57,211 nucleotides of DNA from a virus. The notes below the pieces were generated by a model that was not told the origin of the DNA, ran no database searches, and saw nothing but the letters and a program-made list of their open reading frames with translations. Position numbers and translations under genes: made by a program. The number at the start of each line of letters is the position of its first letter. The stretch's first letter is position 1. The stretch is from IMG/VR virus record IMGVR_UViG_3300025632_000017, positions 1 through 57,211 of that record; one strand, given 5' to 3'. Positions 6,719 through 27,097 of the stretch are shown piece by piece.

Positions 6719-6900
6719 ATTTGGTTTTATGCGCAGCTGCACCCGTTAAAACTCTTTAAATAGGCCAAAGCTGCAATTTGTGCCGGTAATCCCCTGGAAA
6801 TCTTCATTTGTAACTATATGAAATTAAACAATAATCGAAATAAGATGAAATTATTCTGCAAAAAGTTATCTTTTTTGCTTGCAATGTTTTGTGGGATGTT

Positions 6901-7194
6901 GTCTTAGTTGTTTCACGGTTTAAGACCTAAGCAATACGGAACAGGCGGCGATGCCTAAGAATTGCGGCGATGGTCAGAAACTCTGAGGCTTGAAACAGTG
7001 CCGCACGTTATTTGACATTGATGGATCCACCCCAAACCTAGGCGCAAGCCGATAATGGGAAACACTAGGGGAAAGCTTTGACGGACTAGCCTGCGGGTCT
7101 CTGTTTAACTAGCAATATGATTAACGCCTAATAAAGAGGCGCAAGGCTTAAACCTAGGTTAGTTTTTAGTGAGGGGCGGCATACAATCGCCCTT
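6901..7194 (+). ncRNA. Candidate structured leader or non-coding RNA
   Basis: Several perfect stems follow one another: GTCTTA/TAAGAC (6901-6906 with 6921-6926), AGGC/GCCT (6943-6946 with 6953-6956), TGCGGC/GCCGCA (6963-6968 with 7000-7005) enclosing TCAGA-AAC-TCTGA (6974-6986), CCTA/TAGG (7037-7040 with 7066-7069) enclosing GGC-GCAA-GCC (7041-7050), CGCCT/AGGCG (7125-7129 with 7137-7141) and AGGGGCG/CGCCCTT (7172-7178 with 7188-7194). A GNRA loop and a UNCG-like CC-TGCG-GG are present. No protein reads through. It matches no RNA class I can name; it may be a riboswitch-like leader or an independent phage RNA. Confidence 0.45.
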
Positions 7195-7228
7195 CCTATA
7201 AGTTAACCAAATCAATGGAGTAAGACAA

Positions 7229-7819
7229 ATGACAAACTATGTAAGAAACATCCTTAAGACATACCGCATTGCCACAGTGTCAGACGTAGCAGATGGCGTT
7301 GAATGGTATGATAGAGCAAAGCGCATGGCGGCATGGATTGCAAAAGAGACTGGCATTCCAGAGACAACAGTGATCGGCGCTATGGCGGCTCTATCGCCTA
7401 ACAACAGATGGGAACGGAATTGCAAGGACGCTCTAACTATGTGCCAAGCGTGGATCAATGGCGACACAACAGATGACTTCAAAGTGTCCTGCTATAACAC
7501 GATGAAGCAAAAGGCGTGGTCTATCTTAGAGGATGACCTGACAACAGATGAAGACATTCTTTCCCGCCTCAATGGGCAGAAAATCCGCTCTTTCTACTCT
7601 AATATTCGTGGATTGGATGAAGTAACTATTGATGGTCACGCATTGAATATTGCAAGGGGCAAGCGTGAAGGCCTTACATCTGACAAAACAAACATGGGCA
7701 AGAAACAGTATCGTGAATTGCAAGCCGCCTATGTAACAGCCGCCAAGCGTGTGAAGGTTAAGCCGCATGAATTGCAAGCTATCACATGGACAACATGGAA
7801 ACGTATCCACAACATATAA
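7229..7819 (+). CDS. Conserved phage protein, possibly DNA-glycosylase-like (DUF7178-like)
   Basis: A 196-residue protein, first gene of the rightward arm. Conserved-looking blocks are 'AALSPNNRWERNCKDA', 'KAWSIL', 'NGQKIRSFYSNIRG' and 'VTIDGHALNIARG'. The G-x-K-x-x-S-F-Y...N-I-x-G...V-T-I-D-x-H-A series recalls helix-hairpin-helix DNA glycosylase folds and a phage family that I believe is DUF7178; the enzymatic role is inference only. The ATG follows GGAG by seven bases. Being expressed first, it may act on host or phage DNA early. Confidence 0.65.
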   Translation: MTNYVRNILKTYRIATVSDVADGVEWYDRAKRMAAWIAKETGIPETTVIGAMAALSPNNRWERNCKDALTMCQAWINGDTTDDFKVSCYNTMKQKAWSILEDDLTTDEDILSRLNGQKIRSFYSNIRGLDEVTIDGHALNIARGKREGLTSDKTNMGKKQYRELQAAYVTAAKRVKVKPHELQAITWTTWKRIHNI

Positions 7820-7831
7820 ATGAGGAATAAT

Positions 7832-7948
7832 ATGACAAAAATATTCAACGTATCAACACGCAAGGTTGGCGGCATCCGCTTTATTAAGATCGGCAAACTA
7901 TGCTTTAGCTATTGCGTAACAACCAAATTCAAACCTATCGGAGGATAA
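7832..7948 (+). CDS. 38-residue small protein
   Basis: A short open frame, MTKIFNVSTRKVGGIRFIKI and on to a C-terminal KPIGG, with a good GAGG box six bases before the ATG. It fits exactly between its neighbours, and its last codons (GGAGGATAA) supply the ribosome-binding site of the next gene. Basic, beta-like; function unknown. Confidence 0.55.
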   Translation: MTKIFNVSTRKVGGIRFIKIGKLCFSYCVTTKFKPIGG

Positions 7949-7954
7949 ACTATC

Positions 7955-8194
7955 ATGGAACGCTATTTCGTAAAAGACATGCGCAGACTTACTAACTCAC
8001 CATCTGGAAATCCACGCTTCAAATTTATCGTGGCGGATCGGTACGGTGAGACAAAAGTATTGCACACAAAAGCTGATGCGATGTTTAACTATAAGATCAC
8101 GCACGGCTGGGCCAATCGTATGATTGAGGGCTATACACACGCCACCAGCCGCAACATAATCCTTGACCATGCAGACATATCGGAGAAATTTTAA
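7955..8194 (+). CDS. Small hypothetical protein
   Basis: A 79-residue basic protein (MERYFVKDMRRLTNSP...), with a strand-turn-strand start and 'GWANRMIEGYTHATSRN' toward the end. It follows GGAGG at a suitable distance and shares its last base with the start of the next gene (TAATG). Early position and small size suggest a host-takeover protein, but no family was recognised. Confidence 0.6.
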   Translation: MERYFVKDMRRLTNSPSGNPRFKFIVADRYGETKVLHTKADAMFNYKITHGWANRMIEGYTHATSRNIILDHADISEKF

Positions 8195-8409
8195 TGGCAC
8201 GTTTAGACATAGACACAACAACAATGGAAGTTGCCGCAAGGGCTTTAGCTAAATTCAAGCTGGACTACCCCGACAGGATTACTATTTGGGTAGAAGCAGA
8301 GGAGGGCCAGCTTGATATAAAAATTGGCAGTACAGCAAAGCGCACGAACGAAGGCGGAATGCGTTATCACATATATTTTCACAAGACAGATGGACTGATG
8401 GAGGTTTAA
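8194..8409 (+). CDS. Small hypothetical protein
   Basis: A 71-residue protein (MARLDIDTTTMEVAARALAK...). A first helix is followed by strands ('ITIWVEAEEGQLDIKIG'), a compact alpha-beta plan. It is translationally coupled to the gene before it. Function unknown. Confidence 0.6.
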   Translation: MARLDIDTTTMEVAARALAKFKLDYPDRITIWVEAEEGQLDIKIGSTAKRTNEGGMRYHIYFHKTDGLMEV

Positions 8410-8412
8410 ACA

Positions 8413-8847
8413 ATGGACAGACAAACGCTTAGAAACAGGAGCAACAACCCCGACAACCCCAACAAAAACCTGTGCGGCTATGCTGTAGCTCGTGCGCTGG
8501 GCGTGGATGATGCTACACGATACATTCACACGATTGGAGACCTGCAACGTGCGATCCGCTCTATGTGGTCTCTGCGCAGTGTCAAAACCAAGATGGGCGT
8601 GAAGGCTGGCAAAACCACAGTGGGAGCTATACGCAAAAGAATTGCATCAAAGGGCGAGGCTCTGGCTTACTTGGTACACGTTGAGGGCCATGTGCTTTTG
8701 CTTGACAGGGATGGCTCTACATCTGTAGACACCGCACCAGTGCAACGTGATCGGCGCAAGGTTTTGAAGGTTCAGGGTGTCTATATGTCAGACAATGACA
8801 GAAAGTTTATTAAGATGATGCAACTCAAAGAGGAGAAACTAAAATGA
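8413..8847 (+). CDS. Possible cysteine-peptidase-fold early protein
   Basis: A 144-residue protein with 'NLCGYAVARALGV' near residue 20, a long central helix region (GDLQRAIRSMWSLRSVKTK), and 'LVHVEGHVLLLDRDG' around residue 90. A Cys heading a helix followed by a strand-borne His and then an Asp is the order of catalytic residues in papain-like folds (C39, NlpC/P60 types), so it could be a small protease or amidase or a derived binder. This is inference from spacing, not a recognised family. The start follows a GGAGG-like box, and the stop overlaps the next start. Confidence 0.55.
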   Translation: MDRQTLRNRSNNPDNPNKNLCGYAVARALGVDDATRYIHTIGDLQRAIRSMWSLRSVKTKMGVKAGKTTVGAIRKRIASKGEALAYLVHVEGHVLLLDRDGSTSVDTAPVQRDRRKVLKVQGVYMSDNDRKFIKMMQLKEEKLK

Positions 8848-9167
8848 TCTACGCAATCGCAGACGTACCACACGCCGACTATGACAATTATGACATGCTC
8901 AACAAACTCTTTCACGCATTGTCACCGCTTGGCTGGGTGCATAGCTCATGGAAGAATGACACTTGCCCGTCACTGCTCAAAGAAGAAAAGCACGGGAATT
9001 ATTGTCAGGTATTCGTGGACTATATCAACCCTGACCTGCGTGAAGATCCAGAGTGGAGCTTACTATCATATAACTGTTATGACGCAGAAAATATGCTGAT
9101 ATTTGAGGAGCAGTTTGACAACGTAGACAAACTCATAATCTATCTAACAAAGAAGGTGACATCATGA
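8844..9167 (+). CDS. Acidic hypothetical protein
   Basis: A 107-residue acidic protein (MIYAIADVPHADYDNYDML...) with many aromatic residues and 'GWVHSSWKNDTCPSLL'. It overlaps both neighbours by four bases (ATGA), so it belongs to the same translationally coupled operon. Acidic small early proteins can mimic DNA or bind host factors, but nothing specific is visible. Confidence 0.55.
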   Translation: MIYAIADVPHADYDNYDMLNKLFHALSPLGWVHSSWKNDTCPSLLKEEKHGNYCQVFVDYINPDLREDPEWSLLSYNCYDAENMLIFEEQFDNVDKLIIYLTKKVTS

Positions 9168-9889
9168 CCAAAGGTATCGTAATCAGTCTTTATGACTTCA
9201 CAGGTGAGGCACTCAAGCCATGGGCAGAGGCAGGTTATGACTGCTACGCCTATGACATCCAGCATCCTGTAGAGGGGCGCACAGAGGGTGGCATCCACTA
9301 CCGCCGTGCTGACCTGCACAACAAGGATAACCTACTTGCCCTACCTTCAGAGTTTAGTGACAAGCCTGTTGTGTTTGGCATGGCCTTCCCTGTCTGCACT
9401 GACATGGCTGTATCAGGTGCGGCACACTTCAAACGTAAGGCTGAACGTGACCCTGAGTTTCAGGTGAAGGCTGTGAACTATGCTAGATGGTGTGCTTGGT
9501 TGTTTGATGCCCTAGGTGTCCCATACTTTGTGGAGAACCCTGTCAGTGTCTTGGCTACTAAGTGGCGCAAGCCTGACCACAGCTTCCACCCTTATGAGTA
9601 TGGTGGCTACATCCCTGACGATCAGGCAGAGCATCCACGCTGGCCTGAGTATATCGCACCCCGTGATGGATATAAAAAGAAGACCTGCCTATGGACGGGT
9701 GGTGGCTTTGTGATGCCTACAAAGGTATCTGTTGACCCTGAGAAGTACCATGGCAACGGTTACAGCACAGCCATGATGAAGCTGGGCGGTAAGTCACAGC
9801 GCACCAAAGACATACGATCTGCCACACCCCGTGGGTTTGCCAAGGCAGTCTATGAGTTTAACAGCCAACCAGTAAAGGAGAAGGCGTAA
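9164..9889 (+). CDS. C5-cytosine methyltransferase-like protein
   Basis: A 241-residue protein related to short phage DNA cytosine methyltransferases. It has 'VFGMAFPVCTDMAVSGA' at the catalytic-loop position (VC in place of the usual PC), 'VPYFVENPVSVLATKWRKPD' (the ENP motif), 'KKTCLWTGGGF' and 'GGKSQRTKDIRSATPRGFA'. The family usually transfers a methyl group from S-adenosylmethionine to cytosine in DNA, protecting phage DNA from restriction. A classical glycine-rich SAM loop is not obvious at the N-terminus, and there is no large target-recognition domain, so activity is uncertain. Confidence 0.7.
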   Translation: MTKGIVISLYDFTGEALKPWAEAGYDCYAYDIQHPVEGRTEGGIHYRRADLHNKDNLLALPSEFSDKPVVFGMAFPVCTDMAVSGAAHFKRKAERDPEFQVKAVNYARWCAWLFDALGVPYFVENPVSVLATKWRKPDHSFHPYEYGGYIPDDQAEHPRWPEYIAPRDGYKKKTCLWTGGGFVMPTKVSVDPEKYHGNGYSTAMMKLGGKSQRTKDIRSATPRGFAKAVYEFNSQPVKEKA

Positions 9890-10035
9890 TGGATAGAGAA
9901 GTATTCTTTGATTGGCTTGATGCAATGGTGCTGTCGGATGACAGCCGTGGATTGTCGTGGCAAGTCGCACAGGATGATGGTGACGGGTGCATCACAGTAA
10001 AGTTTCATAATGTAGAAGAAGAAGAGACAGAATAA
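9889..10035 (+). CDS. 48-residue acidic small protein
   Basis: Starts on the ATG that overlaps the stop of the methyltransferase-like gene (TAATG) and runs MDREVFFDWLDAMVLSDDS to an EEEETE tail. Strong negative charge throughout; possible DNA mimic or adaptor. A GGAG box lies upstream. Function unknown. Confidence 0.55.
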   Translation: MDREVFFDWLDAMVLSDDSRGLSWQVAQDDGDGCITVKFHNVEEEETE

Positions 10036-10088
10036 CACCCACCAATGACACCCTATACTAGTAACGGTTAAAACAGGAGAGAAAACAA

Positions 10089-10262
10089 ATGTATACGCTA
10101 GAACTAACATCAAGCCAGCTACTCATGCTGAAGGAACTGATCGACAATGACATTGAAATATCCTGCATGGATGCACCAGACTACACTGACATGGATGCCA
10201 TGCAATACTATCTGGATCGGTGCACAGTGTACCACCTAGTAAAAGAGGAACTAGAGACATGA
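10089..10262 (+). CDS. 57-residue acidic small protein
   Basis: Starts MYTLELTSSQLLMLKELI with AGGAG upstream; an N-terminal helix is followed by a second, acidic helix ending EELET. It overlaps the next gene by ATGA. A two-helix hairpin is likely. Function unknown. Confidence 0.55.
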   Translation: MYTLELTSSQLLMLKELIDNDIEISCMDAPDYTDMDAMQYYLDRCTVYHLVKEELET

Positions 10263-10411
10263 TCCGTATCATACTCACCAGCAAGATCACGCACAAACCC
10301 TTGTGTTATCACACCGTGACAGACATGAGAGAGGCAGACAGGCTGGCTGCTAATTACAGCCGCATGGAAGGTGTCAAGGTAGAGGTGTTGCAACTGAGCA
10401 ACGTGACATAA
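10259..10411 (+). CDS. 50-residue basic small protein
   Basis: Starts MIRIILTSKITHKPLCYHTV at an ATGA overlap with the preceding gene, and ends one base into the next frame. Beta-alpha-beta pattern (IRIIL...READRLAANYS...VKVEVLQL). No family recognised; coupled translation supports it being real. Confidence 0.55.
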   Translation: MIRIILTSKITHKPLCYHTVTDMREADRLAANYSRMEGVKVEVLQLSNVT

Positions 10412-10476
10412 TGGTAACATTGACGCAGATTAACACAACGAATAACCTACAAATGTCTAACATAGGAGAAACAGAC

Positions 10477-10692
10477 ATGACTAACACACAAAACTCTAAG
10501 ATCATCACACACCTTCGTGCAACCAAGGGTCTGACCCAGCGTGAGGCTATGCTTGACTACAGCATCCAGTCATTCACCAAGCGTATCTCTGAGCTACGCA
10601 AGTCAGGCTACCGCATTGATGGCGTTAAGGGTAAGCACCCTGTGACAGGTCAGCAGTACACACGCTATGTGCTAATTGAGGAGACAGCATAA
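10477..10692 (+). CDS. Winged-HTH DNA-binding protein (HTH_39-like)
   Basis: A 71-residue protein with 'THLRATKGLTQREAMLDYSI', 'TKRISELRKSGYRI' and a short wing, which matches the small helix-turn-helix domain found in many phages (Pfam HTH_39 type). It probably acts as a transcription regulator or DNA-bridging factor in the early arm, and could be the protein that reads the palindromes at 5725-5979. I chose ATG at 10477 because GGAG lies eight bases upstream; in-frame ATGs at 10411 and 10453 would add 22 or 8 unconvincing residues. Confidence 0.75.
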   Translation: MTNTQNSKIITHLRATKGLTQREAMLDYSIQSFTKRISELRKSGYRIDGVKGKHPVTGQQYTRYVLIEETA

Positions 10693-10895
10693 TGATTGCA
10701 AGTCGTGCCATAAAAGTATACGCCAGTGTGGGTCAGCCTGATGGTGAGTATGTCACCACAGTCTTCACACCTCACGATGCAAACCTGGCTCGTATCAAGC
10801 TATTCAAACGCACGGGTGTACGCCGTGTCATATTCAAGACAGCAACAGGTAATGAGCTTGCCTCATTCATCAACAATAAGGTAGAAAAACCATGA
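10692..10895 (+). CDS. Small basic hypothetical protein
   Basis: A 67-residue basic protein (MIASRAIKVYASVGQPDGEY...), mostly strands with 'ANLARIKLFKRTGVRRVIFK' in the middle. It overlaps both neighbours by one to four bases. Function unknown. Confidence 0.55.
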   Translation: MIASRAIKVYASVGQPDGEYVTTVFTPHDANLARIKLFKRTGVRRVIFKTATGNELASFINNKVEKP

Positions 10896-10963
10896 TTAAT
10901 AAACTAATCACAGCATTTTTAATTTGGCCCTTCGTAGCCTTAGTTATAGCGTATGCTTTTTAA
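10892..10963 (+). CDS. 23-residue membrane microprotein
   Basis: Starts at an ATGA overlap with the preceding stop and encodes MINKLITAFLIWPFVALVIA plus YAF, a single hydrophobic helix long enough to span a membrane. Such microproteins can modulate host membrane proteins. Short length keeps confidence moderate, but the coupled start is suggestive. Confidence 0.45.
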   Translation: MINKLITAFLIWPFVALVIAYAF

Positions 10964-10971
10964 GATACATG

Positions 10972-11003
10972 ACCCGCACGATGAATGTTCTCATTGAGCG
11001 GGT
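10972..11003 (+). terminator. Hairpin before integrase
   Basis: ACCCGC (10972-10977) pairs with GCGGGT (10998-11003), and an inner AATG/CATT pair closes a short loop. No T-run follows, so it is either a weak or Rho-aided terminator, or a regulatory or recombination-related structure just upstream of the integrase gene. Confidence 0.4.
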
Positions 11004-11030
11004 TACTTACCTAAACTGTAGGAGAGAGAG

Positions 11031-11945
11031 ATGAGAAAGCCGGAGAGCACAGACAAAATAGAAAAGTTACTATCATTCTATATGCGAAGTCCTGCCTTCG
11101 CTAAACTAAAAGGAGAAACTCAAAAGCAGTACGAGAGACATCTAACTAATGTTGGTAACACTAAAGTTTATGCAATTCTACTTAAAAACTACAGGATAGA
11201 AGACCTGAGAGCCAGTCATCTCACAAATGCCTATGAGCAATGGCTTAATACAGGAACTCGTACAGCAAACTATCGTAAGACCGCACTGAGTGCAGCATGG
11301 AAGTATGGATTGCGTAATGACATAATGATCCACGATCCTGTGCGTCTAATCAAGACAGAGACAACAGAGCCTCGCAAAGTTAAGTGGTCACGGGATCAAG
11401 TTAAAACATTCCTAGACACAGGCTATAGCCAAACGAAATGGCGTAACCTTACTCTAATTGTTCACATGGCATATGACTGGGGCCAACGCATAGGCGACAT
11501 GAGAACTCTTACATGGGATAAATTAAACCTAGAAGAGTGTCGCTTAGATATTACACAATCGAAACGAGGCGCAGAGGTACACCTACCTATTAGCTCTGGC
11601 TTATGCCAGATGCTACAGAAACAGCATGAAGACTTTGGGTTCCAGGATTTTGTTGCTCCTAGAATAGAGCCTAGATGTGGCGTATATGTTGCTTACTCAG
11701 AGAAGAATATTTCTAGTATTCTCAATGATATACTACAAGAAGCTAACCTACCAAACCAACTAACAGCCATGGACTTACGCCGCACAGCAGTGACAGAAAT
11801 GATGGAGGCTGGTGTTGACCTTGTTGGTATCATGCAGGTAACAGGACACAAGAGTATGAATAGCGTGAGGCCTTACATGGTCAACACATTCAGTGGTGCA
11901 TCCAAGGCACTAGCAGCGAGAGGTAATGGCGATGACGAGAGTTAG
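11031..11945 (+). CDS. int: Tyrosine recombinase (integrase)
   Basis: A 304-residue site-specific recombinase of the phage integrase family. The N-terminal half is the SAM-like core-binding domain (LRASHLTNAYEQWLN...). The catalytic domain shows Arg153 (GQRIGD), a beta-turn Lys (TQSKRG), Arg250 in 'MDLRRTAV' (Asp where many have His), His273 (GHKS) and the nucleophile Tyr282 (RPYMV). It would join phage and host attachment sites, implying a temperate or formerly temperate phage. GGAGAG precedes the start. The usual tRNA-derived attP core was not found nearby. The next gene overlaps its 3' end. Confidence 0.9.
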   Translation: MRKPESTDKIEKLLSFYMRSPAFAKLKGETQKQYERHLTNVGNTKVYAILLKNYRIEDLRASHLTNAYEQWLNTGTRTANYRKTALSAAWKYGLRNDIMIHDPVRLIKTETTEPRKVKWSRDQVKTFLDTGYSQTKWRNLTLIVHMAYDWGQRIGDMRTLTWDKLNLEECRLDITQSKRGAEVHLPISSGLCQMLQKQHEDFGFQDFVAPRIEPRCGVYVAYSEKNISSILNDILQEANLPNQLTAMDLRRTAVTEMMEAGVDLVGIMQVTGHKSMNSVRPYMVNTFSGASKALAARGNGDDES

Positions 11946-12276
11946 ATCCCCCGAGACAATAAACAGAGATAACATTAGGAAGAGAAAAAGATACGACTAT
12001 GGTCAGGCTGTACTAAAGCGTTACAAAGTAAGGAAGGGTTGCGCTAAGTGTGGCTACAACAAAAGTGCACAGGCGTTACAGTTCAACCATATCAACCCAG
12101 AGGATAAATGTTTCCTTATAGCACAAAGGGCACATAATATGTACCTGAAAAGACACACTAAAGGTAAACAGATGCTAAGGTCAGAGATAGCTAAGTGTCA
12201 AGTGTTGTGTGCTAACTGTCACTGCATACTTACTTTTGAGGAAAAACACTTTGGTGTGAAGCGGAAGGGTAGGTAG
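11932..12276 (+). CDS. HNH endonuclease
   Basis: A 114-residue basic protein with one zinc-binding pair in CAKCGYN, 'ALQFNHINPEDK' (the N-H core of the HNH fold) and a second pair in 'CQVLCANCH'. It would cut DNA with a single metal ion and may be a free-standing homing-type nuclease or serve recombination. The start overlaps the integrase gene. I prefer the ATG at 11932, eight bases after GAGG, over the ATG two codons upstream. Its stop directly abuts the primase start. Confidence 0.8.
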   Translation: MTRVRSPETINRDNIRKRKRYDYGQAVLKRYKVRKGCAKCGYNKSAQALQFNHINPEDKCFLIAQRAHNMYLKRHTKGKQMLRSEIAKCQVLCANCHCILTFEEKHFGVKRKGR

Positions 12277-13056
12277 ATGAACATTCGTAAATATTTAGAC
12301 AGCCTGGACTTAAGAGAGGATGAGAGCAGACGTATGAACTGCCCATCCTGCTATGCCAAGAACACATTCACGATCACTAAAGAGATGGGTCTAATCAAGT
12401 ACAACTGTTACAAGCTAGACTGTAGCATTGGCGGGTATCATCACACTGACCTTACAGCAGCAGAGATAAAAATACTCATGGCTAAACAAGAGAAGCCTAT
12501 GCAGATGGAGCCTGAGACTATGGAGATACCTGAGTATGTGGTACAGCCTACAGCAGAGCATGATAAGTTTCACAGGTTCACTAAACGCTGGGGTATCGTA
12601 GACAGACGCCTACTCTATGACGTTAAGGATGAACGTGTTGTATTCCCGATACACTACAAAGGGCGCATCATTGATGCTAATGGACGTGCAGTAGGCGAGA
12701 AGCTGCCTAAGTGGTATCGCTACACAGGTAAGGCAGACTACTACACAGTAGGGACGGGGCCAACACTTCTAGTCTTAGAGGATTGTGTCTCTGCCATGGT
12801 AGCATACCAAGAGTTTCCTAATGTAACAGCTATGGCAATACTTGGCACAGCCCTTACAGCCGCACACATGGATAAAATAAGCGAGTATGACGATGTTATC
12901 GTAGCACTAGATCCTGATGCAGCACACAAGACTTTGCAGTTTAGTAGAGAGATAGCACTATGGACAAATGCAAATAGTACAGCCTTCAGGCTTGACGATG
13001 ACATCAAATATAGGCTAACTGATGACCTAGAACGATTAAAGGAATTACTATCATGA
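12277..13056 (+). CDS. DNA primase with zinc ribbon and Toprim domain
   Basis: A 259-residue stand-alone primase, equivalent to the N-terminal half of T7 gp4. Residues about 20-50 carry a zinc-ribbon (CPSCYAK...YNCYKLDC) and the Toprim fold follows with 'LLVLEDCVSAMVAY' (catalytic Glu) and 'DVIVALDPDAAHK' (Asp pair). It synthesises RNA primers on the lagging strand for the polymerase at 16243-18291, working with the separate DnaB-type helicase at 15005-16231. Split primase and helicase genes are usual in the HMO-2011 group. Confidence 0.85.
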   Translation: MNIRKYLDSLDLREDESRRMNCPSCYAKNTFTITKEMGLIKYNCYKLDCSIGGYHHTDLTAAEIKILMAKQEKPMQMEPETMEIPEYVVQPTAEHDKFHRFTKRWGIVDRRLLYDVKDERVVFPIHYKGRIIDANGRAVGEKLPKWYRYTGKADYYTVGTGPTLLVLEDCVSAMVAYQEFPNVTAMAILGTALTAAHMDKISEYDDVIVALDPDAAHKTLQFSREIALWTNANSTAFRLDDDIKYRLTDDLERLKELLS

Positions 13057-13190
13057 ACGATCTAAAAGATTTTCTCAAAGAGATGGGCCTAGAGAGTGTC
13101 CACCCTAAGCCTAGCGCAGAGAAGCCTGACTATATGCAGCCAGGATATTATGTAGATCCACGAAACAAATACGGTGAGGTTCCATTCTGA
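13053..13190 (+). CDS. 45-residue small protein
   Basis: Starts at an ATGA overlap with the primase stop (MNDLKDFLKEMGLESVHPK...) and ends one base before the thyX ATG (TGATG). An N-terminal amphipathic helix is followed by a Pro/Tyr-rich tail (YMQPGYYVDPRNKYGEVPF). It might bind the primase or helicase; function unknown. Confidence 0.55.
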   Translation: MNDLKDFLKEMGLESVHPKPSAEKPDYMQPGYYVDPRNKYGEVPF

Positions 13191-13840
13191 TGATTAAAGC
13201 AACATACATTGATCACATGGGTAATGACTTGACGGTAGCCAACGCTGCACGAGTGTCATTTGGTAAGACATCTCAGATGGAAGACGATCCTTGGGGGCCA
13301 CCAAAGCTCAAGGCTAAGGATGATAAGCTCATCCGTTATCTAGCCAAGCATCGTCATATCAGTCCCTTTGGGCATTGCTTTGCAAGCTTCCATGTCAAGG
13401 CTCCAATCTTTGTGGCACGGCAGCTAGTCAAGCATAAGTTCTTGAGATGGAACGAAATATCTAGGCGCTATGTGGATGATGAGCCAGAGTTTTATGTACC
13501 TGACGTGTGGCGTGGGCGCAGTTCTGACAAGAAGCAAGGCTCTGATGGTGTCGTTGATGTAGGTGACTGGGGTGATACTAACTGGGCATGTCTAAAAGCC
13601 TACAACGATCTTCTTGAGCATGGTGTAGCACCTGAGATGGCACGTATGGTGCTACCACAGTCAACCATGACTGAGTGGTACTGGTCAGGTAGCCTAGATG
13701 CCTTTGCTGATATGTGTAACCTACGCTGCAAGCGTGACACACAGGCAGAGACACGAGAGGTAGCTGCCCAGATAGACCACAAGATGATTGAACTATTCCC
13801 TGTATCGTGGGATGCACTAACGGAGGATGAAGATGGCTAA
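13190..13840 (+). CDS. thyX: Flavin-dependent thymidylate synthase ThyX
   Basis: A 216-residue ThyX, which makes dTMP from dUMP using methylene-tetrahydrofolate, FAD and NADPH. The signature occurs as '[15 protein letters not shown]' (about residues 81-95): the NE..RRY half is classical while the first Arg is Lys. '[20 protein letters not shown]' and '[16 protein letters not shown]' are further family blocks. It supplies thymidine for phage DNA together with the class II RNR and MazG encoded downstream. ThyX is common in marine phages, including HMO-2011 relatives. Confidence 0.93.
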
Positions 13841-14045
13841 ACTGTATGACTTAGAGCCAATGATAATGGACTGCTGGCATGTATGCGATGACCTACAGAT
13901 AGTCTTCAGACAGATCGGTGATGGTGAACGTGAGCCTACACATGATGAAATGATGAACACCTTGATGGGTATGCAGCAGCTATACCAGTGGAAGTTTGAG
14001 CAGTTGTTCAACAAGTATGAGGATGTACTCCGTGACAGACAATGA
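13833..14045 (+). CDS. Conserved small helical marine-phage protein
   Basis: A 70-residue protein ([20 protein letters not shown]...), all-helical, ending '[19 protein letters not shown]'. I recognise the pattern '[12 protein letters not shown]' from many cyanophages and pelagiphages, where it lies among replication genes without known function. GGAGG lies six bases before the chosen ATG, inside the 3' end of thyX. Confidence 0.7.
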
Positions 14046-14154
14046 GTGGCCTTTAGAGGCAGACTTTAGTGACATAAGACCTATGACGCCAGAAGAACGT
14101 AAGGCTGCACAGGAACGTGACGAAAAGAACGGAGCTAAGAAGAATGATTCGTAG
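14032..14154 (+). CDS. 40-residue small protein with GTG start
   Basis: An open frame from GTG (GAGG nine bases upstream), reading [20 protein letters not shown] and an E/K-rich end to TAG at 14154. It overlaps genes on both sides in the coupled style of this operon. Highly charged; function unknown. Confidence 0.4.
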
Positions 14155-14464
14155 TGAATGGAAACGTTTGATGAAAGAGAACCAGGACTTTAAGGAGAGT
14201 GTATTGGCTGAGCATAATAGAATAGAACCGCCTGTTACGGCAGCGGATAATGTCAACAACCCAGCGCACTATGGTAAGGGTAGCATTGAGTGCATTGACT
14301 ACATTGAAGACTTCCTCACCACAGAGGAATACATAGGCTACCTGCGTGGTAACATAGCTAAGTACCTACACCGCTGGCGTTACAAGAACAAGCAAGAGGA
14401 TCTACTCAAGTCACAGTGGTACTTGGATCGTCTTATAAAGCTAAATGGAAAGGATAAGACATGA
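14144..14464 (+). CDS. DUF3310 (SaV-like) protein
   Basis: A 106-residue protein whose second half matches DUF3310: 'NNPAHYGKGSIECIDYIEDF', 'GYLRGNIAKYLHRWRYKN' and 'DLLKSQWYLDRLI'. The family is widespread in phages and is sometimes annotated as nucleotide-kinase-like; its role is not settled. It sits between thyX and the helicase, so a link to nucleotide or DNA metabolism is likely. I chose the ATG at 14144 (GGAG nine bases upstream) over a GTG nine codons earlier. Confidence 0.8.
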   Translation: MIRSEWKRLMKENQDFKESVLAEHNRIEPPVTAADNVNNPAHYGKGSIECIDYIEDFLTTEEYIGYLRGNIAKYLHRWRYKNKQEDLLKSQWYLDRLIKLNGKDKT

Positions 14465-14589
14465 TGCCTGTAGGTCAATTACGTTTGTTGCTCACCAAGG
14501 CAGGGCTTGAGTATGTCATCACCCGTGTGGAAGGTAACGTAGCTCACGTTAACATTCTTGTAGCGGAGCAGCCTGATGTACACAGTTGA
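14461..14589 (+). CDS. 42-residue small protein
   Basis: Begins at an ATGA overlap with the DUF3310 gene (MMPVGQLRLLLTKAGLEYVI...) and overlaps the next start. An N-terminal helix is followed by strands (EYVITRVEGNVAHVNILVAE). Function unknown; coupling supports it. Confidence 0.5.
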   Translation: MMPVGQLRLLLTKAGLEYVITRVEGNVAHVNILVAEQPDVHS

Positions 14590-14818
14590 GTTTGAATCAG
14601 ACGCTGCTGTAATCACAACCCTAGACCAGGATGACATGCACGAGGATGTGGAAGTCATCTTAGGTGATGATGGTGATGTATATATCCGACAGTTTGAACC
14701 AGACATGGACTGTTACCAGATGATTATCATGAGCCATCAGCAACTCATTGATATTATAGCAGCATACAACAGTAAAGAAGGGGCTTTCTACATAACATTT
14801 GAGAGGCCACAAGTATGA
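14576..14818 (+). CDS. Acidic beta-rich small protein
   Basis: An 80-residue strongly acidic protein (MYTVEFESDAAVITTLDQDD...) with 'VEVILGDDGDVYIRQFEPDM'. Mostly strands, ending in a helix. Surface acidity suggests a binder of a basic partner or DNA mimicry. Overlaps both neighbours. Function unknown. Confidence 0.55.
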   Translation: MYTVEFESDAAVITTLDQDDMHEDVEVILGDDGDVYIRQFEPDMDCYQMIIMSHQQLIDIIAAYNSKEGAFYITFERPQV

Positions 14819-15027
14819 ATGAACTAGGACAAGGGTTTTTCGCTGGCGTATTCGCAATGTATGTGTTAGCCCTACCCTTAATATACCATATGGTAGAGCC
14901 AGAGGATGAGGAGATGGATAACTCTGGCCCTATCAAGTTTGCTTTCCTGTGGCCTTTGATTGCACTGGAAGTATTATATCGTATCTTTGTAGGAGAGAAA
15001 GACAATGATGGAACTGGCACTAATTAA
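14815..15027 (+). CDS. Small membrane protein
   Basis: A 70-residue protein with two hydrophobic segments (FFAGVFAMYVLALPLIYHM and 'FAFLWPLIALEVLYRIFV') joined by an acidic loop (EPEDEEMDNS). It probably spans the inner membrane twice. It lies directly before the helicase gene and overlaps it. Candidate early host-membrane or superinfection protein; no family recognised. Confidence 0.55.
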   Translation: MNELGQGFFAGVFAMYVLALPLIYHMVEPEDEEMDNSGPIKFAFLWPLIALEVLYRIFVGEKDNDGTGTN

Positions 15028-16231
15028 GACGTTACTTAACCGTGACTTCTATGAACAACACAAAGGCATTCGCTGCCCTGATAAAATCTTCACTAAGGAT
15101 GTACGCAAGATCAAGCAGGCACTAGATGCTGCCATGAGGACATATGATGGCGATCTAAACACATCAGACCTAGAGGCCTTGTTCTACTCACAGAACCAGA
15201 CGATGACAACTGCCACTAAGACTGCCTATGAAGATCTCTTTCGCAAGATAAATAAAGAAGACACTATCAAAGAGGATATTGCTACAGACGTACTTGGCAG
15301 TATGTTTCAGCAGTATGTAGGCGAACAGGTAGCCAACCTAGGCTTTGACTTCGTTAACGGCACACAGACCAGCCTAGAGCCGCTCAGACGTATGCTTGAG
15401 AACTACAAGGATGACTTCACCCCCAACCTTCGTATTGAGTGGGAAGACATTAGTATCGACACACTACTCAAGGCAAACGATCTACAGACACAATGGAAGT
15501 TTAATATCCCTAGCCTACGCCGCAAGGTAGAGGGTGTCAGTGGTGGTCACTTACTGTTGGTAGGCGCACGTCCTAACACAGGTAAGACATCCTTCCATGC
15601 CTCTCTCATTGCTGGACCAGAGGGCTGGGCGCACCAAGGTGCTAAGTGTGTGGTGCTATGTAATGAGGAAGCATATGAGCGTGTAGGAGCACGTTACTTG
15701 AGCGCAGCCTCTAACATGTCCATGGATGAGGTTAAGGCTAACGTAGCCCTCGCTCGTAGCCGCTATGAACCTGTTAGGAAGAACATCCGCATCAAGGACA
15801 GCACCAACAAGGATATGCAGTGGGTTGAGTCTCTGGTCAAACAAGAGAAGCCAGACGTACTGATCCTGGACATGGGTGACAAGTTCGCCAGCAAGACAAG
15901 TGATAAGTCCGATGTGTACCTAAAAGATGCGGCTATCTATGCTCGTAACATCGCTAAGCAATACAACTGTTGTGTTGTATGGATGTCACAGCTGAGTGCT
16001 GTAGCAGAGGGCAAGGTATATGTAGACCAATCCATGATGGAAGGCAGTAAGACAGGTAAAGCAGCAGAGGCAGACCTTATGGTTCTGATCTCTAAGAACC
16101 CCATTGTTGAGGGTGCTGATGAAGAAGATACACAACGGCACTTGAATATAGCTAAGAATAAGCTTAAGGGTGGTTGGCACGGTGTAGTACACTGTGAGTT
16201 AGACGGGGCGAGATCACTATATCAAGCCTAG
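15005..16231 (+). CDS. DnaB/RecA-fold replicative helicase
   Basis: A 408-residue hexameric DNA helicase. The N-terminal 170 residues are helical and may contact primase. The RecA-like ATPase has Walker A 'GARPNTGKTS' (residues 187-196), a DnaB-style Glu in 'VLCNEEAYERVGARYL', Walker B 'VLILDMGD' and a sensor-type 'CVVWMSQLSAVAEGK'. It unwinds DNA ahead of the polymerase encoded immediately downstream. The start could be either of two adjacent ATGs, within the previous membrane-protein gene. Confidence 0.88.
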   Translation: MMELALIKTLLNRDFYEQHKGIRCPDKIFTKDVRKIKQALDAAMRTYDGDLNTSDLEALFYSQNQTMTTATKTAYEDLFRKINKEDTIKEDIATDVLGSMFQQYVGEQVANLGFDFVNGTQTSLEPLRRMLENYKDDFTPNLRIEWEDISIDTLLKANDLQTQWKFNIPSLRRKVEGVSGGHLLLVGARPNTGKTSFHASLIAGPEGWAHQGAKCVVLCNEEAYERVGARYLSAASNMSMDEVKANVALARSRYEPVRKNIRIKDSTNKDMQWVESLVKQEKPDVLILDMGDKFASKTSDKSDVYLKDAAIYARNIAKQYNCCVVWMSQLSAVAEGKVYVDQSMMEGSKTGKAAEADLMVLISKNPIVEGADEEDTQRHLNIAKNKLKGGWHGVVHCELDGARSLYQA

Positions 16232-16242
16232 AGGAGAGAGAG

Positions 16243-18291
16243 ATGAGACTTGTACTAGACGTTGAGAACACAACAAACAGGCGTAGGGATAAGCTACACC
16301 TAGACCCATATGAGGAGGGTAACTTCCTTGTGCAAGTCGGTATGCAGAACGCAGATAATCACGAAGAGTTACATATTGTAACATTAGATCACGTTGAGAA
16401 GAAAGACACTAGTGGTGCTGGGCGTAAGCTAATTCAACAAATCTTAGACATGACTACTCTTCTCATCATGCACAATGCGCAGCACGATCTGATGTGGCTA
16501 TGGGAATGTGGCTTTAAGTATGACGGGCCTATCTATGACACCATGCTTGCAGAGTATATCCTACTGCGTGGTCAGAAAGATCCATTAAGCTTAGAGGCAT
16601 GTGCAGAGAGACGCAACCTTAACGCTCAGAAGGATGACACCCTCAAGCGTTACTTTAAGGAAGGGTATAATACAAATGAAATTCCTCTCAGTGAGCTTTG
16701 CTTTTATCTTAGGTGCGATCTCGACACAACTCGTGAGTTGTTCCACAGCATCCAGGCAGACTACGGTGAACCCGATTCAGCCAGTCTACACACCGTTAGA
16801 GACGTTACCTTCAGAACCTGTCAAACCCTTACCCGAATGTACATGTCAGGAATCAGGGTGGATCGTACAGCCTTAGATGATGTACGCTTACAGTTTGAAC
16901 GTGAGAAGGCAGACATTGAGGATCGACTACAGCATAAGGTGCGTGAGATCATGGGTGACACACCTATCAATCTCAAGTCACGGGAGCAGATGTCTCAGGT
17001 TGTATTCTCTCGCAGGATGAACAACAAGAAAGAGTGGGTGGAGCTGTTTGATTACGTGAACAACCCTAAAGAGTTTAAGCAGGCTGTAGAAGCTAACAGT
17101 ACTATCATAAAACGTACAAAAGCTTTCACCTGTCCTACATGCACGGGTACAGGTAAGACGTACAAGACAAAGAAGGATGGCACTAAGTTTGCTAAACCTA
17201 ACAAGTGCAGGGATTGTGACGCTCGTGGCTATGGCTTGAAGGAACTAAACCATATGGCAGGTCTAGGCTTTGGTGCACCTAGCAAGAAGTGGGTTAGTGC
17301 TGATGGGTTTAGCACAGGAAAGGATAACTTAGATGTACTTGTGGGAACTGCTAAAACGAACAACATGGATGCTGCTGTTGAGTTTCTTACTGACCTTAAG
17401 CGTCTTTCTGCTGTTAGTAGCTACCTCTCTAGTTTTGTGGAAGGTATCGACACCTTCACCAAATCAGACGGTTTCCTGCATGTGGGACTCACCCAACACA
17501 TTACTGCAACAGGACGTTTTAGTGGAAGAAATCCCAACATGCAAAACATGCCAAGAGGCGGGACGTTTCCCGTAAAGAAAGTGTTTGTGTCTCGCTGGGA
17601 TGGCGGCTACATCTGTGAGGCTGACTTTGCTCAGCTTGAATTTAGAACGGCTGCATACCTGGCTCAGGATGAAGTTGCTATGGGAGAGATTGCTACAGGC
17701 TTTGACGTACACAGCTATACTGCACAGGTTATCTCTGATGCAGGACAGCCTACGTCACGTCAGGAAGCCAAGGCTCATACCTTCGCACCTCTCTTTGGGG
17801 CTACAGGTTATGGCAGATCTAAGGCAGAGGAAGCTTATTACATTCACTTCACGGAGAAGTATCAGGGTGTAGCTAACTGGCACAAGAACTTAGCTGATGA
17901 AGCTGTACGGTTTAACAAGATTACTAATGTGTCAGGGCGGCAGTACGCATTCCCTGATGTTAAGCGCAACTCTCGTGGTGGTGTATCGCACTTCACCATG
18001 ATTAAGAACTACCCAGTGCAGGGCTTTGCTACTGGTGATGTTGTTCCTGTTGTGCTAATTGAACTGGAGGAGCGGTTGAAGGGGCTACAATCTTGCTTAG
18101 TGAATACTGTTCACGACTCAACGGTTATAGACATTCATCCAGAGGAGAAGGAGACAGTATTAAGTATTATAGAAGACATGAATGAGGGCTTGACAGACTT
18201 AATTGAGAAAGCCTATAACGTAAAAATGAATGTGCCTCTATTATTAGAATCTAAAATCGGGCCGAATTGGCTTGACGTAAGAGATGTATGA
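16243..18291 (+). CDS. Family A DNA polymerase with DnaJ-like zinc insertion
   Basis: A 682-residue replicative polymerase with 3'-5' exonuclease (DVENTTN at the start; 'MHNAQHDLMWLWECG'; 'DTMLAEYILL') and polymerase domain. Motif A is 'EADFAQLEFRTAAY' (catalytic Asp461), motif B 'RQEAKAHTFAPLFGATGYG' (Arg506, Lys510) and motif C 'NTVHDSTVID' (His624-Asp625). Between them lies a DnaJ-type zinc module: CPTC at 297-300 and CRDC at 322-325 with GTGK and RGYG nearby. This insertion is the described hallmark of HMO-2011-type phages. GAGAGAGAG precedes the start. A lipoprotein-like frame lies within (16676-16876). Confidence 0.95.
   Translation: MRLVLDVENTTNRRRDKLHLDPYEEGNFLVQVGMQNADNHEELHIVTLDHVEKKDTSGAGRKLIQQILDMTTLLIMHNAQHDLMWLWECGFKYDGPIYDTMLAEYILLRGQKDPLSLEACAERRNLNAQKDDTLKRYFKEGYNTNEIPLSELCFYLRCDLDTTRELFHSIQADYGEPDSASLHTVRDVTFRTCQTLTRMYMSGIRVDRTALDDVRLQFEREKADIEDRLQHKVREIMGDTPINLKSREQMSQVVFSRRMNNKKEWVELFDYVNNPKEFKQAVEANSTIIKRTKAFTCPTCTGTGKTYKTKKDGTKFAKPNKCRDCDARGYGLKELNHMAGLGFGAPSKKWVSADGFSTGKDNLDVLVGTAKTNNMDAAVEFLTDLKRLSAVSSYLSSFVEGIDTFTKSDGFLHVGLTQHITATGRFSGRNPNMQNMPRGGTFPVKKVFVSRWDGGYICEADFAQLEFRTAAYLAQDEVAMGEIATGFDVHSYTAQVISDAGQPTSRQEAKAHTFAPLFGATGYGRSKAEEAYYIHFTEKYQGVANWHKNLADEAVRFNKITNVSGRQYAFPDVKRNSRGGVSHFTMIKNYPVQGFATGDVVPVVLIELEERLKGLQSCLVNTVHDSTVIDIHPEEKETVLSIIEDMNEGLTDLIEKAYNVKMNVPLLLESKIGPNWLDVRDV
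16676..16876 (+). CDS. Overprinted lipoprotein frame inside the polymerase gene (possible outer-membrane spanin)
   Basis: A 66-residue frame in another phase of the polymerase gene. It starts with ATG after 'GAAGGG' ten bases upstream and encodes a basic start (MK), hydrophobic core 'FLSVSFAFILGAI' and a textbook lipobox LVSC. The tail is proline-rich ('PIQPVYTPLETLPSEP', 'VKPLPECTCQESG'). Small, Pro-rich lipoproteins of this size are typical of Rz1-type o-spanins. It could still be chance. Its place on the early strand is odd for a lysis gene. Conservation in relatives would decide. Confidence 0.35.
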   Translation: MKFLSVSFAFILGAISTQLVSCSTASRQTTVNPIQPVYTPLETLPSEPVKPLPECTCQESGWIVQP

Positions 18292-18334
18292 GGTATAACT
18301 AAGACTCTTTTTGACTGTAGTAAAGGATATACAG

Positions 18335-19213
18335 ATGAGTACAGAACTAGCAACAACAGGTTCATTAGACCCATTAGCAGAGCTGATTGGTGAACCTAAA
18401 CAACAGACACAATCACGATCTTCTCTGGCTCGTGTTAGTGTGTTGAGTACAGCCATTAAAGGCGAGATTGAGCTTGGCGGTAAGAAGATCAAGACAGACG
18501 TTTTACCTGTTGGGTCTTTCAAGATCACACTTGGTGATGATGTCTTCTATGCAGAAAGCGTAGAGGTTCGTATAATCACGCATCGCTTTCAGTTTCAGCG
18601 GTGGAACACTTCCACTAGTGAGATGGAGAAGTCCGTTATGAGTCGTTCTACTTACAGCGACTTAAAGGATAGCACTGGTGGCTTTAACTTAGGCCGTCCC
18701 TCTGGTTACATTGAGGATTGGAACGCACTACCTGAAGCTACTAAGGAGATTATTCGCTCAGCTAAACGTGTGAAGATCTTCATGGGTACACTTACAGTTA
18801 AGGCTCCTCTTGATGATGCAGGACAACCTACCGCTGGTGAGTATGTTGATATTCCATTCGTTATGGATGTTAAAAATAACGATAGCCTCAAGAGCCTTGC
18901 AGCTACTGAAAAAGCTATTGAACGTAAGAACGTCAAAACTCACATGGCTAAGGTTATCCTTAGTGGTGCAGAGGGTTCAATTCCTACAGGTGCTACCTAT
19001 GGCTACGTTACTTCTTCTGTAGGAGAGATTGTACAGGAGTCAGACGAAGACACTGCAGCTATGAGGAAAGTAGCTTCAGACTTCTTGGATTATGTCAGCT
19101 ACTCAAATGGTAAGATCATGGATCTACACGTTGAGCGTTCCAATACAAGTATGAGCAAGGAAGATGCAGCACTTGTAGGTTCTATTATTGATGTAGAAGA
19201 GGCACCATACTAA
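18335..19213 (+). CDS. Probable DNA-binding replication protein (ssDNA-binding candidate)
   Basis: A 292-residue protein (MSTELATTGSLDPLAELIGE...) with a beta-rich middle ('GSFKITLGDDVFYAESVEVR', 'HRFQFQRWNTST') and an acidic C-terminus (GSIIDVEEAPY). Aromatic-rich strands plus an acidic tail, and a position between polymerase and exonuclease, recall T7 gp2.5-type single-strand-binding proteins; this is inference by layout. AAGGA lies eight bases before the chosen ATG. The stop is followed at once by the exonuclease start. Confidence 0.6.
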   Translation: MSTELATTGSLDPLAELIGEPKQQTQSRSSLARVSVLSTAIKGEIELGGKKIKTDVLPVGSFKITLGDDVFYAESVEVRIITHRFQFQRWNTSTSEMEKSVMSRSTYSDLKDSTGGFNLGRPSGYIEDWNALPEATKEIIRSAKRVKIFMGTLTVKAPLDDAGQPTAGEYVDIPFVMDVKNNDSLKSLAATEKAIERKNVKTHMAKVILSGAEGSIPTGATYGYVTSSVGEIVQESDEDTAAMRKVASDFLDYVSYSNGKIMDLHVERSNTSMSKEDAALVGSIIDVEEAPY

Positions 19214-20082
19214 TGACTCATCCTGCAGAGATAGCTGTTTTCTCTTTCTTGCAGAAGGCTATGGCTGGTGAGACTACTATGACAGAGGAGGTGGCTAAAC
19301 AAGTCGCCTCCGATGTTGAGGCTGCTTTGTACAAGCAATTCTCAGGTGGTCCTCGTGATGATTTTCGCTTACGGATGTCTAATATCGGTAGGCCTAAGTG
19401 TCAGCTATGGTTTGACAAGAATGACCCAGAAGACAAGACACCATTCCCTCCACACTTCCTGATGAACATGATCCTTGGCGATATAGTCGAGGCTGTGTTT
19501 AAGGGTATCCTACGTTCAGCAGGCATAGAGTTTGAGGATAACAAGCGTGTTACTCTCAAGTTACCTCATGGTCAGGAGATCAAGGGTGAGTATGATATGG
19601 AGATGGATGGACGCATTGACGATGTTAAGTCTGCCTCACCTTGGTCTTACGATAACAAGTTTGCATCCTTTGGTTCACTAGCCTACAAGGACGGCTTTGG
19701 CTACGTGGCACAGCTTGTGGGCTACGCAGAGGCCGCTGGAAAGGATGTAGGTGGCTGGTGGGTAGTCAACAAAGCAAATGGTCAATTCAAGTATGTAGAC
19801 GCCTCTGAAGACGTAGACAAGGAAGCAGTATTGGCTGACATCCAGGCTACTGTAGATTACATCGACAACGATGAACCCTTTGAGCGTTGCTTTGAGCCAG
19901 TAGAGGAATCATTCTACCGTAAGAAGACAGGTAACTGGGTGCTACCTGATGACTGTAAGTTCTGTAGCTTTAAACATAAGTGTCATGACAACTTTGAGAC
20001 ACGCACAAGCATCCCTAGTAAATCTAAGAACCCACAACTTGTGGACTACACATTCATAGCAGAGGAATATCTGAATGCCTAA
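19213..20082 (+). CDS. Cas4/RecB-like PD-(D/E)XK exonuclease with cysteine cluster
   Basis: A 289-residue nuclease. Key parts are 'MSNIGRPKCQLWFDK' (first cysteine, about residue 60), 'GEYDMEMDGRIDDVKSAS' (the D...D-x-K active site), 'GYVAQLVGYAEAAG' (the motif with Gln and Tyr) and 'CKFCSFKHKC' near residue 250, which with the first Cys could hold a 4Fe-4S cluster as in Cas4 and AddB. It likely degrades host DNA or processes ends for recombination and concatemer resolution, the job of T7 gp6. It overlaps the following gene by eight bases. Confidence 0.8.
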   Translation: MTHPAEIAVFSFLQKAMAGETTMTEEVAKQVASDVEAALYKQFSGGPRDDFRLRMSNIGRPKCQLWFDKNDPEDKTPFPPHFLMNMILGDIVEAVFKGILRSAGIEFEDNKRVTLKLPHGQEIKGEYDMEMDGRIDDVKSASPWSYDNKFASFGSLAYKDGFGYVAQLVGYAEAAGKDVGGWWVVNKANGQFKYVDASEDVDKEAVLADIQATVDYIDNDEPFERCFEPVEESFYRKKTGNWVLPDDCKFCSFKHKCHDNFETRTSIPSKSKNPQLVDYTFIAEEYLNA

Positions 20083-20281
20083 ACTAACTATCAACGACAC
20101 CGACTACTACACAGAAGACTTCAATGAGAATCAGACAAAGCTTTACAATGAGGTGATGCTTGCAACAGATCAGATGAAGCGCTTAGAAGTTCAATTCAAA
20201 GCACTAGAGGGTATGACTAATGTACTAGCATCTCAGATTGTAGAAGAAGGTAAAGATGCCGAAGACGAACCGGAGGCATAA
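20075..20281 (+). CDS. Small coiled-coil protein (DUF6447-like)
   Basis: A 68-residue protein (MPKLTINDTDYYTEDFNENQ...) with a short beta start and a long charged helix ('MLATDQMKRLEVQFKALEGM'), ending in an acidic tail. This arrangement is common in marine phages (I believe DUF6447). It overlaps the exonuclease and endonuclease I genes, so it may be their partner. Confidence 0.6.
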   Translation: MPKLTINDTDYYTEDFNENQTKLYNEVMLATDQMKRLEVQFKALEGMTNVLASQIVEEGKDAEDEPEA

Positions 20282-20693
20282 CTCTAAAACGTATCGCAGT
20301 GGCCTTGAAGTTGAGGCCGCTGCATACCTCAAGGATAGGCAGAAGATTGTAGCCTATGAAAAGCTAAAGATAGAGTGGGAGGATCTAAAGTACCGTACAT
20401 ACACACCAGACTTTGAGCTAGACAACGGCATAATAATTGAGCTGAAGGGGTTGTTTTCTGCTGCAGATAGACGTAAGCATATAGAGATACAGCGTCAGCA
20501 TCCTACACTAGATATTCGTTTTGTATTTAGTAATGCTAATTCAAGGCTTTACAAAGGAGCTAAGAGTAGGTACTGCGATTGGTGCGATCAAAAGGGTTTC
20601 CTCTGGGCTAATCGTGTGATACCAGAAGAGTGGCTCAAAGAAAAAGGTAAGCGTATGAAAGAGCAGCGTGTAAAAGTTAAGAGGAGAGAGTAA
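20256..20693 (+). CDS. Endonuclease I (Holliday junction resolvase, T7 gp3-like)
   Basis: A 145-residue protein of the phage endonuclease I family. Diagnostic blocks are 'YRSGLEVEAAAYLKD' (catalytic Glu), 'RTYTPDFELDNGIIIELKG' (PD...E-x-K active site), 'RRKHIEIQRQHPTLDIRFVF' and 'GAKSRYCDWCDQKGFLWA'. It cuts branched DNA and Holliday junctions, resolving replication concatemers and breaking host DNA. It is encoded beside the exonuclease, as in T7-type replication modules. The extended basic tail (KGKRMKEQRVKVKRRE) may aid DNA binding. Confidence 0.92.
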   Translation: MPKTNRRHNSKTYRSGLEVEAAAYLKDRQKIVAYEKLKIEWEDLKYRTYTPDFELDNGIIIELKGLFSAADRRKHIEIQRQHPTLDIRFVFSNANSRLYKGAKSRYCDWCDQKGFLWANRVIPEEWLKEKGKRMKEQRVKVKRRE

Positions 20694-21046
20694 TGGCTTA
20701 TGAGATTAAACCTGGTGACATCGCTATTGTACTATCTCCTGTCGTTGAGGACGGTGAGTGGACGGGCAGTATCAAGACTGGCATGGTCTTTGGTTCGGCT
20801 GGTTCAGAGGATGGCATGAGGGCTGCTCTTGATGAGGCACTCACTATGTCTGCTGCACAGAAGTTCTTAGAGCTTTACCCTGATGCTTGGGAAGACTTTG
20901 CAGATCTAAGGCAGGGCATTATTCAAGAGATGTTTCCCGATCAGTATGCAGAAGCAGAACAAGAGCAAGCAGAAGCTACAGCGTATGAAGTAGAGGATAA
21001 TGTAGTTACACTTACACGCTGGTCTAAGACACAGGGAAGCGCATGA
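20693..21046 (+). CDS. Hypothetical protein with acidic helical tail
   Basis: A 117-residue protein. The first half is strand-rich (MAYEIKPGDIAIVLSPVVED), the second helical and acidic (AEAEQEQAEATAYEVED). GAGAGAG provides the ribosome-binding site. Found between endonuclease I and MazG; marine phages carry similar proteins of unknown role. Confidence 0.6.
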   Translation: MAYEIKPGDIAIVLSPVVEDGEWTGSIKTGMVFGSAGSEDGMRAALDEALTMSAAQKFLELYPDAWEDFADLRQGIIQEMFPDQYAEAEQEQAEATAYEVEDNVVTLTRWSKTQGSA

Positions 21047-22186: not shown

Positions 22187-22195
22187 GGAACTAAA

Positions 22196-25175: not shown

Positions 25176-25186
25176 AAGGATGCGTA

Positions 25187-27064: not shown

Positions 27065-27070
27065 AGAAAA

Positions 27071-27090: not shown

Positions 27091-27097
27091 TCTCTCG

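Follow-up and report, generated by a model that had tools for sequence, protein, structure and literature searches.

In Escherichia coli, boxA binds NusB-S10 and has been described as necessary and sufficient for the recruitment of antitermination factors at rRNA operons (PMC10250234). The boxA pattern shared by the phages described here, CGYTNTTTGACAT, resembles the gamma-proteobacterial consensus GYTCTTTAANA (PMC5725501). Phages of the SIO1 group are without an RNA polymerase (PMC6775973). The window analysed in this work is one virus record of 57,211 bases (G000), and a leader carrying this boxA stands before its rightward genes. The leader is a real structured RNA. On comparative grounds, it resembles the antitermination leader of an rRNA operon; it is carried by marine phages of the Rhodobacterales and includes a hairpin specific to the lineage, which phage and host share.

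An unassigned structured RNA had been predicted at 6901-7194 from the letters alone, and this was borne out. The + strand of 6890-7230 folds with -105.1 kcal/mol, against a mean of -91.5 for shuffled sequences (z -3.08), and none of 100 dinucleotide shuffles was as good. The reverse strand reached a z of only -1.5; the folding excess is clear on the + strand and not clearly present on the other. Relatives also exist, and the alignment of related phages, which had been proposed as a check, revealed compensatory changes. No ORF of at least 60 aa lies within 6578-7228, in agreement with the predicted absence of a protein-like frame. A search for tRNA and tmRNA found none. The Rfam covariance search, also named in advance, returned zero family matches above the gathering threshold, and up to E 10 the best chance matches had E values of 6-8. 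The statement that the RNA fits no known class thus holds for Rfam, but not for its core, which corresponds to a boxA antitermination site and a hairpin of host rRNA leaders. Both pairs of repeats named in the original prediction are present (6945 and 6964 for GCGGCGATG, 7034 and 7150 for AAACCTAGG), and all four copies are unique to these places on the + strand of the window. The GNRA loop is real (GCAA at 7044-7047). The named stems 6943-6956, 7041-7050, 7125-7141 and 7172-7194 are all predicted by folding, and comparison with relatives backs the 6943-6956 stem, the motif at 7037-7058 and the 3' domain. The small stem at 6974-6986 is present, but apart from the window only the nearest relatives have it.

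The functional suggestions fared unevenly. A cis element had been proposed for the first rightward operon, and the RNA does stand at its head. An abundant free RNA is not supported, since no terminator lies between 7000 and the first gene and the element is found at operon heads. An upstream promoter had also been claimed. The promoter scan directly before the leader found no convincing consensus sigma-70 promoter, and none at 6855-6884, but the block TCTGCAAAA...TTTTTRCTTG at 6855-6881 is kept in five phages. The early transcript probably starts shortly downstream of this block. The features of the locus are listed in the table.

Table. Features of the leader and of the early operon in the window
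Feature	Position	Strand	Basis
Promoter-like block TCTGCAAAA-N14-CTTGCA (putative promoter)	6855..6884	+	conserved in 5 phages
Upstream module: GCAAU/AUUGC helix (6931-6935 with 6961-6965) around AGGC-GGCGAU-GCCU hairpin (6943-6956)	6931..6965	+	
Short hairpin GGC...GCC in boxB-like position directly 5' of boxA	6987..7002	+	comparison
boxA CGTTATTTGACAT, predicted NusB-S10 binding site	7006..7018	+	no other place in the window matches CGYTNTTTGACAT exactly
Core hairpin CC-UA-GGC-GCAA-GCC-GAUAAU-GG (P1, UA/GAUAAU internal loop, P2)	7037..7058	+	model R1, covariation, host counterparts
3' domain: helix 7066-7080/7142-7156 (second AAACCUAGG copy) enclosing hairpin 7125-7141	7066..7156	+	pair probabilities 0.84-1.0
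Terminal stem before first gene (GGGGCG..CGCCC inside)	7158..7207	+	pair probabilities mostly 0.8-1.0
First early gene, DUF7178 / phrog_3842, homologue of SIO1 gp9	7229..7819	+	PF23802 E 1.3e-41; phrog_3842 E 1.8e-64
Co-oriented early operon of ~20 kb behind the leader	7229..27064	+	ORF list, family scans
Strong terminator-like hairpin between converging arms	27067..27094	.	found on minus strand

Two parts of the leader are common to all phages that carry the core. These are the CGYTNTTTGACAT boxA, of which L016 has the variant CTATTTGAAAAT (a similar CTGTTTGAAAAT occurs in leaders of Roseobacteraceae), and, after a variable spacer, a hairpin of the form P1-UA-P2-loop-P2'-GAUAAU-P1' with a fixed asymmetric internal loop. 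The helices change in sequence and keep their pairing: P2 occurs among the phages as GGC/GCC, GGG/CCC, GCU/AGC and GC/GC, and P1 as CC/GG, CUCU/AGAG, UGG/CCC and UUGCCC/GGGCAA. The internal loop stays fixed, whereas the terminal loop takes many forms (GCAA, UCAC, UUAC, AUG, CAAGC and others). Because MAFFT misaligned the complete set of cores, gap-free or clean subsets served for model building. A seed alignment of 10 sequences gave a covariation of 0.528 versus 0.143. In an alignment of 23 rows the value was 0.466 versus 0.113 after shuffling, with 94% of the cells paired and 27 cells changed on both sides against 7.9 from shuffles; this alignment was fitted to the model, leans towards it, and one of its rows is weak and chance-like. 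The covariance model built from phages only (R1) found a single copy in the window (7037-7058, 43.5 bits). A reading of TTTGACAT...GATAAT as a sigma-70 promoter was rejected, since its spacing varies far beyond the required 16-18 nt and its parts lie in covarying stems.

In an alignment of the upstream module at 6931-6965 from seven phages, 93% of the cells are paired, five pairs show two-sided changes and covariation is 0.294, against 0.141 when shuffled; many other phages with the core lack this module. The small hairpin before boxA ends at most 6 nt from it in most of 23 phages, with stems that differ between phages (GGC/GCC, GGG/CCC, GGUGAU/AUCACC and GGGCC/GGCCC). Its mean stem score is above all 500 shuffles, although single stems are weak; that of the window is thermodynamically weak, with a probability of 0.06 in the full-length fold. 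Contig L012 retains the closing helix of the 3' domain with a different sequence (AAAGAGGAU/AUCCUCUUU) and has a variant of the terminal stem at 7158-7207.

The core was found in 24 distinct phage sequences, including the isolates SIO1, ICBM1, ICBM2 and ICBM3. The pattern of the shared core detected 17 IMG/VR stretches and a looser pattern five further true cases; L016, with its variant boxA, is counted as well. A relaxed pattern, CCATTATCGG..TGTYAAANAG, added mostly chance matches. Over the leader, the viral contig L007 is identical to the window, L009 has 91% identity and parts of L012 match. The Lentibacter phage isolates ICBM1 and ICBM3 show 76% identity over about 106 bases. There is one copy of the core per genome in the window and in nine other carriers that were scanned, among them the complete genomes of SIO1, ICBM1 and ICBM2. 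It lies 40-370 nt upstream of the first gene and always reads in the same direction as the operon, while the first genes themselves are unrelated between phages. The core therefore belongs to the operon and not to the DUF7178 gene. In the records of SIO1 and other Siovirus the core region carries no annotation. The R1 search found no element in the examined ends of the roseophages CRP-1, CRP-13, CRP-207 and P12053L, so it is not essential to all related roseophages. Two additional motifs were observed among the carriers. SIO1-like sequences (L001/L002 330-560, L003 470-590, and L004 upstream of 1237) have a conserved block CATCGGCAAGCAAACACCGACAC...GAGCAAGCCCTAGCA..AAGAGGGG 5' of boxA, which is absent from the window and is possibly a further RNA module. 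L095 and L097, which are otherwise different phages, have in common the motif AATTAGCCG..TGACTAGCC/AACCTAGCC about 200 nt 3' of the core.

The same two parts, in the same order, are present in the rRNA leaders of the Rhodobacterales. Of 142 alphaproteobacterial genomes, 8 contain the exact boxA pattern CGCTSTTTGACATTG, and the controls gave 0 matches. Among the eight loci scanned, five hold 16S rRNA. Four of these have a complete 16S 5' end shortly downstream of boxA, and in L146 the 16S match adjoins boxA and is truncated. Leaders were then collected from 14 Rhodobacterales rRNA operons, together with one from Sinorhizobium and one from Sphingobium, from plasmid-borne operons. In all 14 Rhodobacterales leaders boxA is located 222-290 nt before 16S and has the CTNTTTGACA/GAAA form. 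A hairpin P1-UA-P2-loop-P2'-GAUGAU-P1' lies 3' of it in 12 of the 14 under a strict descriptor, for which 0.012 were expected, and the remaining two have variant loops. This hairpin is placed about 120-170 nt before 16S, between boxA and 16S (L153-L157, L159 and L161-L168). It covaries strongly (0.892 versus 0.260), with 33 two-sided cells against 10.9. It was found in none of seven other alphaproteobacterial rRNA loci (Sinorhizobium, Sphingobium and five more). The Sulfitobacter dubius hairpin, GCUCU-UA-GGCUUCGGCC-GAUGAU-AGAGU, is close to that of SIO1, GCUCU-UA-GGGUCACCCC-GAUAAU-AGAGC. The hosts have a stem-loop of about 45 nt between boxA and the UA hairpin, and a boxA-to-UA spacing of 70-76 nt. 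When folded, this stem-loop would bring the host hairpin nearer to boxA, like the short or hairpin-containing spacers of the phages (L094, L100).

No Rfam family was found for the host hairpin, and no paper on it turned up in the open-licence literature, although paywalled work on rRNA leaders may describe it. In the same literature we found nothing on boxA of alphaproteobacterial or Rhodobacter rRNA leaders, or on phage mimics of them. The rRNA-leader hairpin of the Rhodobacterales thus appears to be previously undescribed. It may serve rRNA folding or processing. Since it is common to phage and host, a host factor of transcription or ribosome assembly probably binds to it, and this factor could now be identified.

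Reciprocal searches connected the two groups. R1, run over 24.6 kb of host rRNA loci, gave only two matches, both of them the rRNA-leader hairpin (E 0.01 and 0.04). A second model built from host leaders only (R2) was run over 185 kb of phage loci, and the phage element filled the top 11 places, with a best E of 0.015. R2 misses the window's own copy, which falls below the threshold and whose P1 consists of two pairs, CC/GG; this copy is connected to the host hairpin through its relatives and R1. Over 190 alphaproteobacterial genomes R2 gave four weak matches, with no rRNA family in their flanks. A scan of genome contigs with the phage core pattern gave 12 matches, about the number estimated by chance, and those inspected were coding or isolated.

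The operon behind the leader encodes integrase, primase, helicase, DNA polymerase A, thymidylate synthase, RNR, nucleases and PhoH. The window has no rRNA gene, and the leader precedes phage early genes rather than rRNA. Family scans of the early proteins revealed neither an RNA polymerase nor an antitermination or N-like protein. On the + strand, the early operon showed no strong intrinsic terminator, so the target of antitermination would be Rho or pausing. The cobaviruses have a bidirectional terminator between their arms, at the position corresponding to the terminator-like hairpin of the window (PMC6775973). Other features of the genome were observed as well. A small + strand ORF (7832-7948; 38 aa, starting MTKIFNVSTRK) lies just 3' of the DUF7178 gene. 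At the DNA level it is about 73% identical to a stretch of roseophage CRP-207 that carries no annotation. A tyrosine integrase gene (11031-11945, +) is located inside the early replication operon, which suggests a temperate or formerly temperate lifestyle. The small and large terminase genes (1215-1586 and 56143-57132, both -) are at opposite ends of the record. The genome is therefore probably circularly permuted, and the leftward arm probably runs from about 5653 across the record ends to 27098. Between the diverging arms there is a long AT-rich intergenic region (5654-6900) with palindromes, such as 5856-5869/5918-5931, whose arms are 100% complementary. This region is a possible operator or origin.

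We propose, with a probability of about 0.7, that the leader is a nut-like, processive antitermination site of the rRNA-operon type, which would load host Nus factors onto the host RNA polymerase. Its resemblance to Rhodobacterales rRNA leaders extends to sequence, structure and order of the parts; factor binding and antitermination activity are inferred. The resemblance suggests that a marine phage borrows the rRNA antitermination machinery of its likely hosts, the Rhodobacterales, for about 20 kb of early genes. The host RNA polymerase would transcribe the leader, and boxA at 7006-7018 would bind host NusB-S10. The UA/GAUAAU hairpin at 7037-7058 would help to bring in the other host factors of the complex (NusA, NusG, SuhB or S4), or to place them. 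The modified polymerase would then pass Rho-dependent and other stops along the operon, as far as the terminator near 27.07 kb. The phage leader may descend from a host leader, or the two may have converged.

A lambda-type nut site has the same place at the operon head and the same order of boxA and hairpin, and would require a phage-encoded, so far unrecognised N-like RNA-binding protein. Non-lambdoid mEpimmI phages use such a protein (PMC11893012), several small early ORFs of the window are unassigned, and an N-like protein too divergent for detection may exist. We nevertheless consider a nut site of this type unlikely, since conservation is found in the internal loop and not in the terminal loop, and the internal loop is common to host rRNA leaders that have no phage protein. 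The failure of the scanned early proteins to match any antitermination family, and the different first genes of the carriers, also argue against it. Nus factors bound at boxA might instead act as a brake or switch on the first gene or genes, cutting translation or promoting Rho termination. A boxA in a 5' UTR can repress in this way, as in E. coli suhB (PMC5725501), but such control is quite improbable for an element that precedes many unrelated first genes at distances of 40-370 nt, and the inclusion of the rRNA-leader hairpin points to processive modification rather than to control of a single gene.

The direct likeness to the host leader would also suit a decoy, which during infection draws off Nus factors, or a ribosome-assembly factor, from the host rRNA operons. 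We regard this as very improbable, because the element is a single cis copy at the operon head and there is no terminator to release a free RNA. A DNA element, such as an origin or a packaging site, in which the stems arose by chance and have no RNA function, would suit the location, a long intergenic stretch between the two arms that contains palindromes. It is hardly credible, since it is contradicted by the two-sided compensatory changes in phage and host helices, as well as by the variable spacing and the constant sense orientation.

If rRNA-type antitermination is correct, it explains how podophages like SIO1, without an RNA polymerase of their own, transcribe long early operons. With the leader one could test in a simple way if a Nus complex of the rRNA type is able to drive phage gene expression without an N protein. 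The leader has also drawn attention to a hairpin that covaries in rRNA leaders of an abundant order of marine bacteria. The wider claim is that a widespread group of marine phages achieves antitermination without N by copying the whole host rRNA signal, including an undescribed functional hairpin specific to the Rhodobacterales; its chances seem about even.

Several known systems share part of this arrangement. Like the lambda nut sites, the leader belongs to an early operon transcribed by the host RNA polymerase, and has boxA followed by a hairpin. However, there is one site here and two in lambda, no GNRA-like boxB loop is conserved, the conserved part being the internal loop common with host leaders, and no N-like protein was found among the scanned early proteins, N proteins being known to diverge fast. 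The put RNA of HK022 is also a structured phage leader proposed to act without a phage protein, but put alone suppresses pausing and termination via RNA polymerase (PMC9378689), while the boxA found here points to Nus factors. The suhB-type 5' UTR likewise has a boxA outside rRNA; suhB represses, whereas the phage boxA heads a long operon and is accompanied by the additional rRNA-leader hairpin. The bacterial rRNA leader (boxB-boxA-boxC, rrnTAC) differs in that the phage leader drives protein genes and not rRNA. With respect to the Rhodobacterales, the phages have GAUAAU where the hosts have GAUGAU, and their boxA-to-UA spacing is shorter than the 70-76 nt of the hosts and is without the stem-loop of about 45 nt. 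Nevertheless, the phage boxA is of the local host type, the small hairpin before it is reminiscent of the boxB-boxA order of rrn operons, and the same UA/GAURAU hairpin follows 3' of boxA in phages and Rhodobacterales alike.
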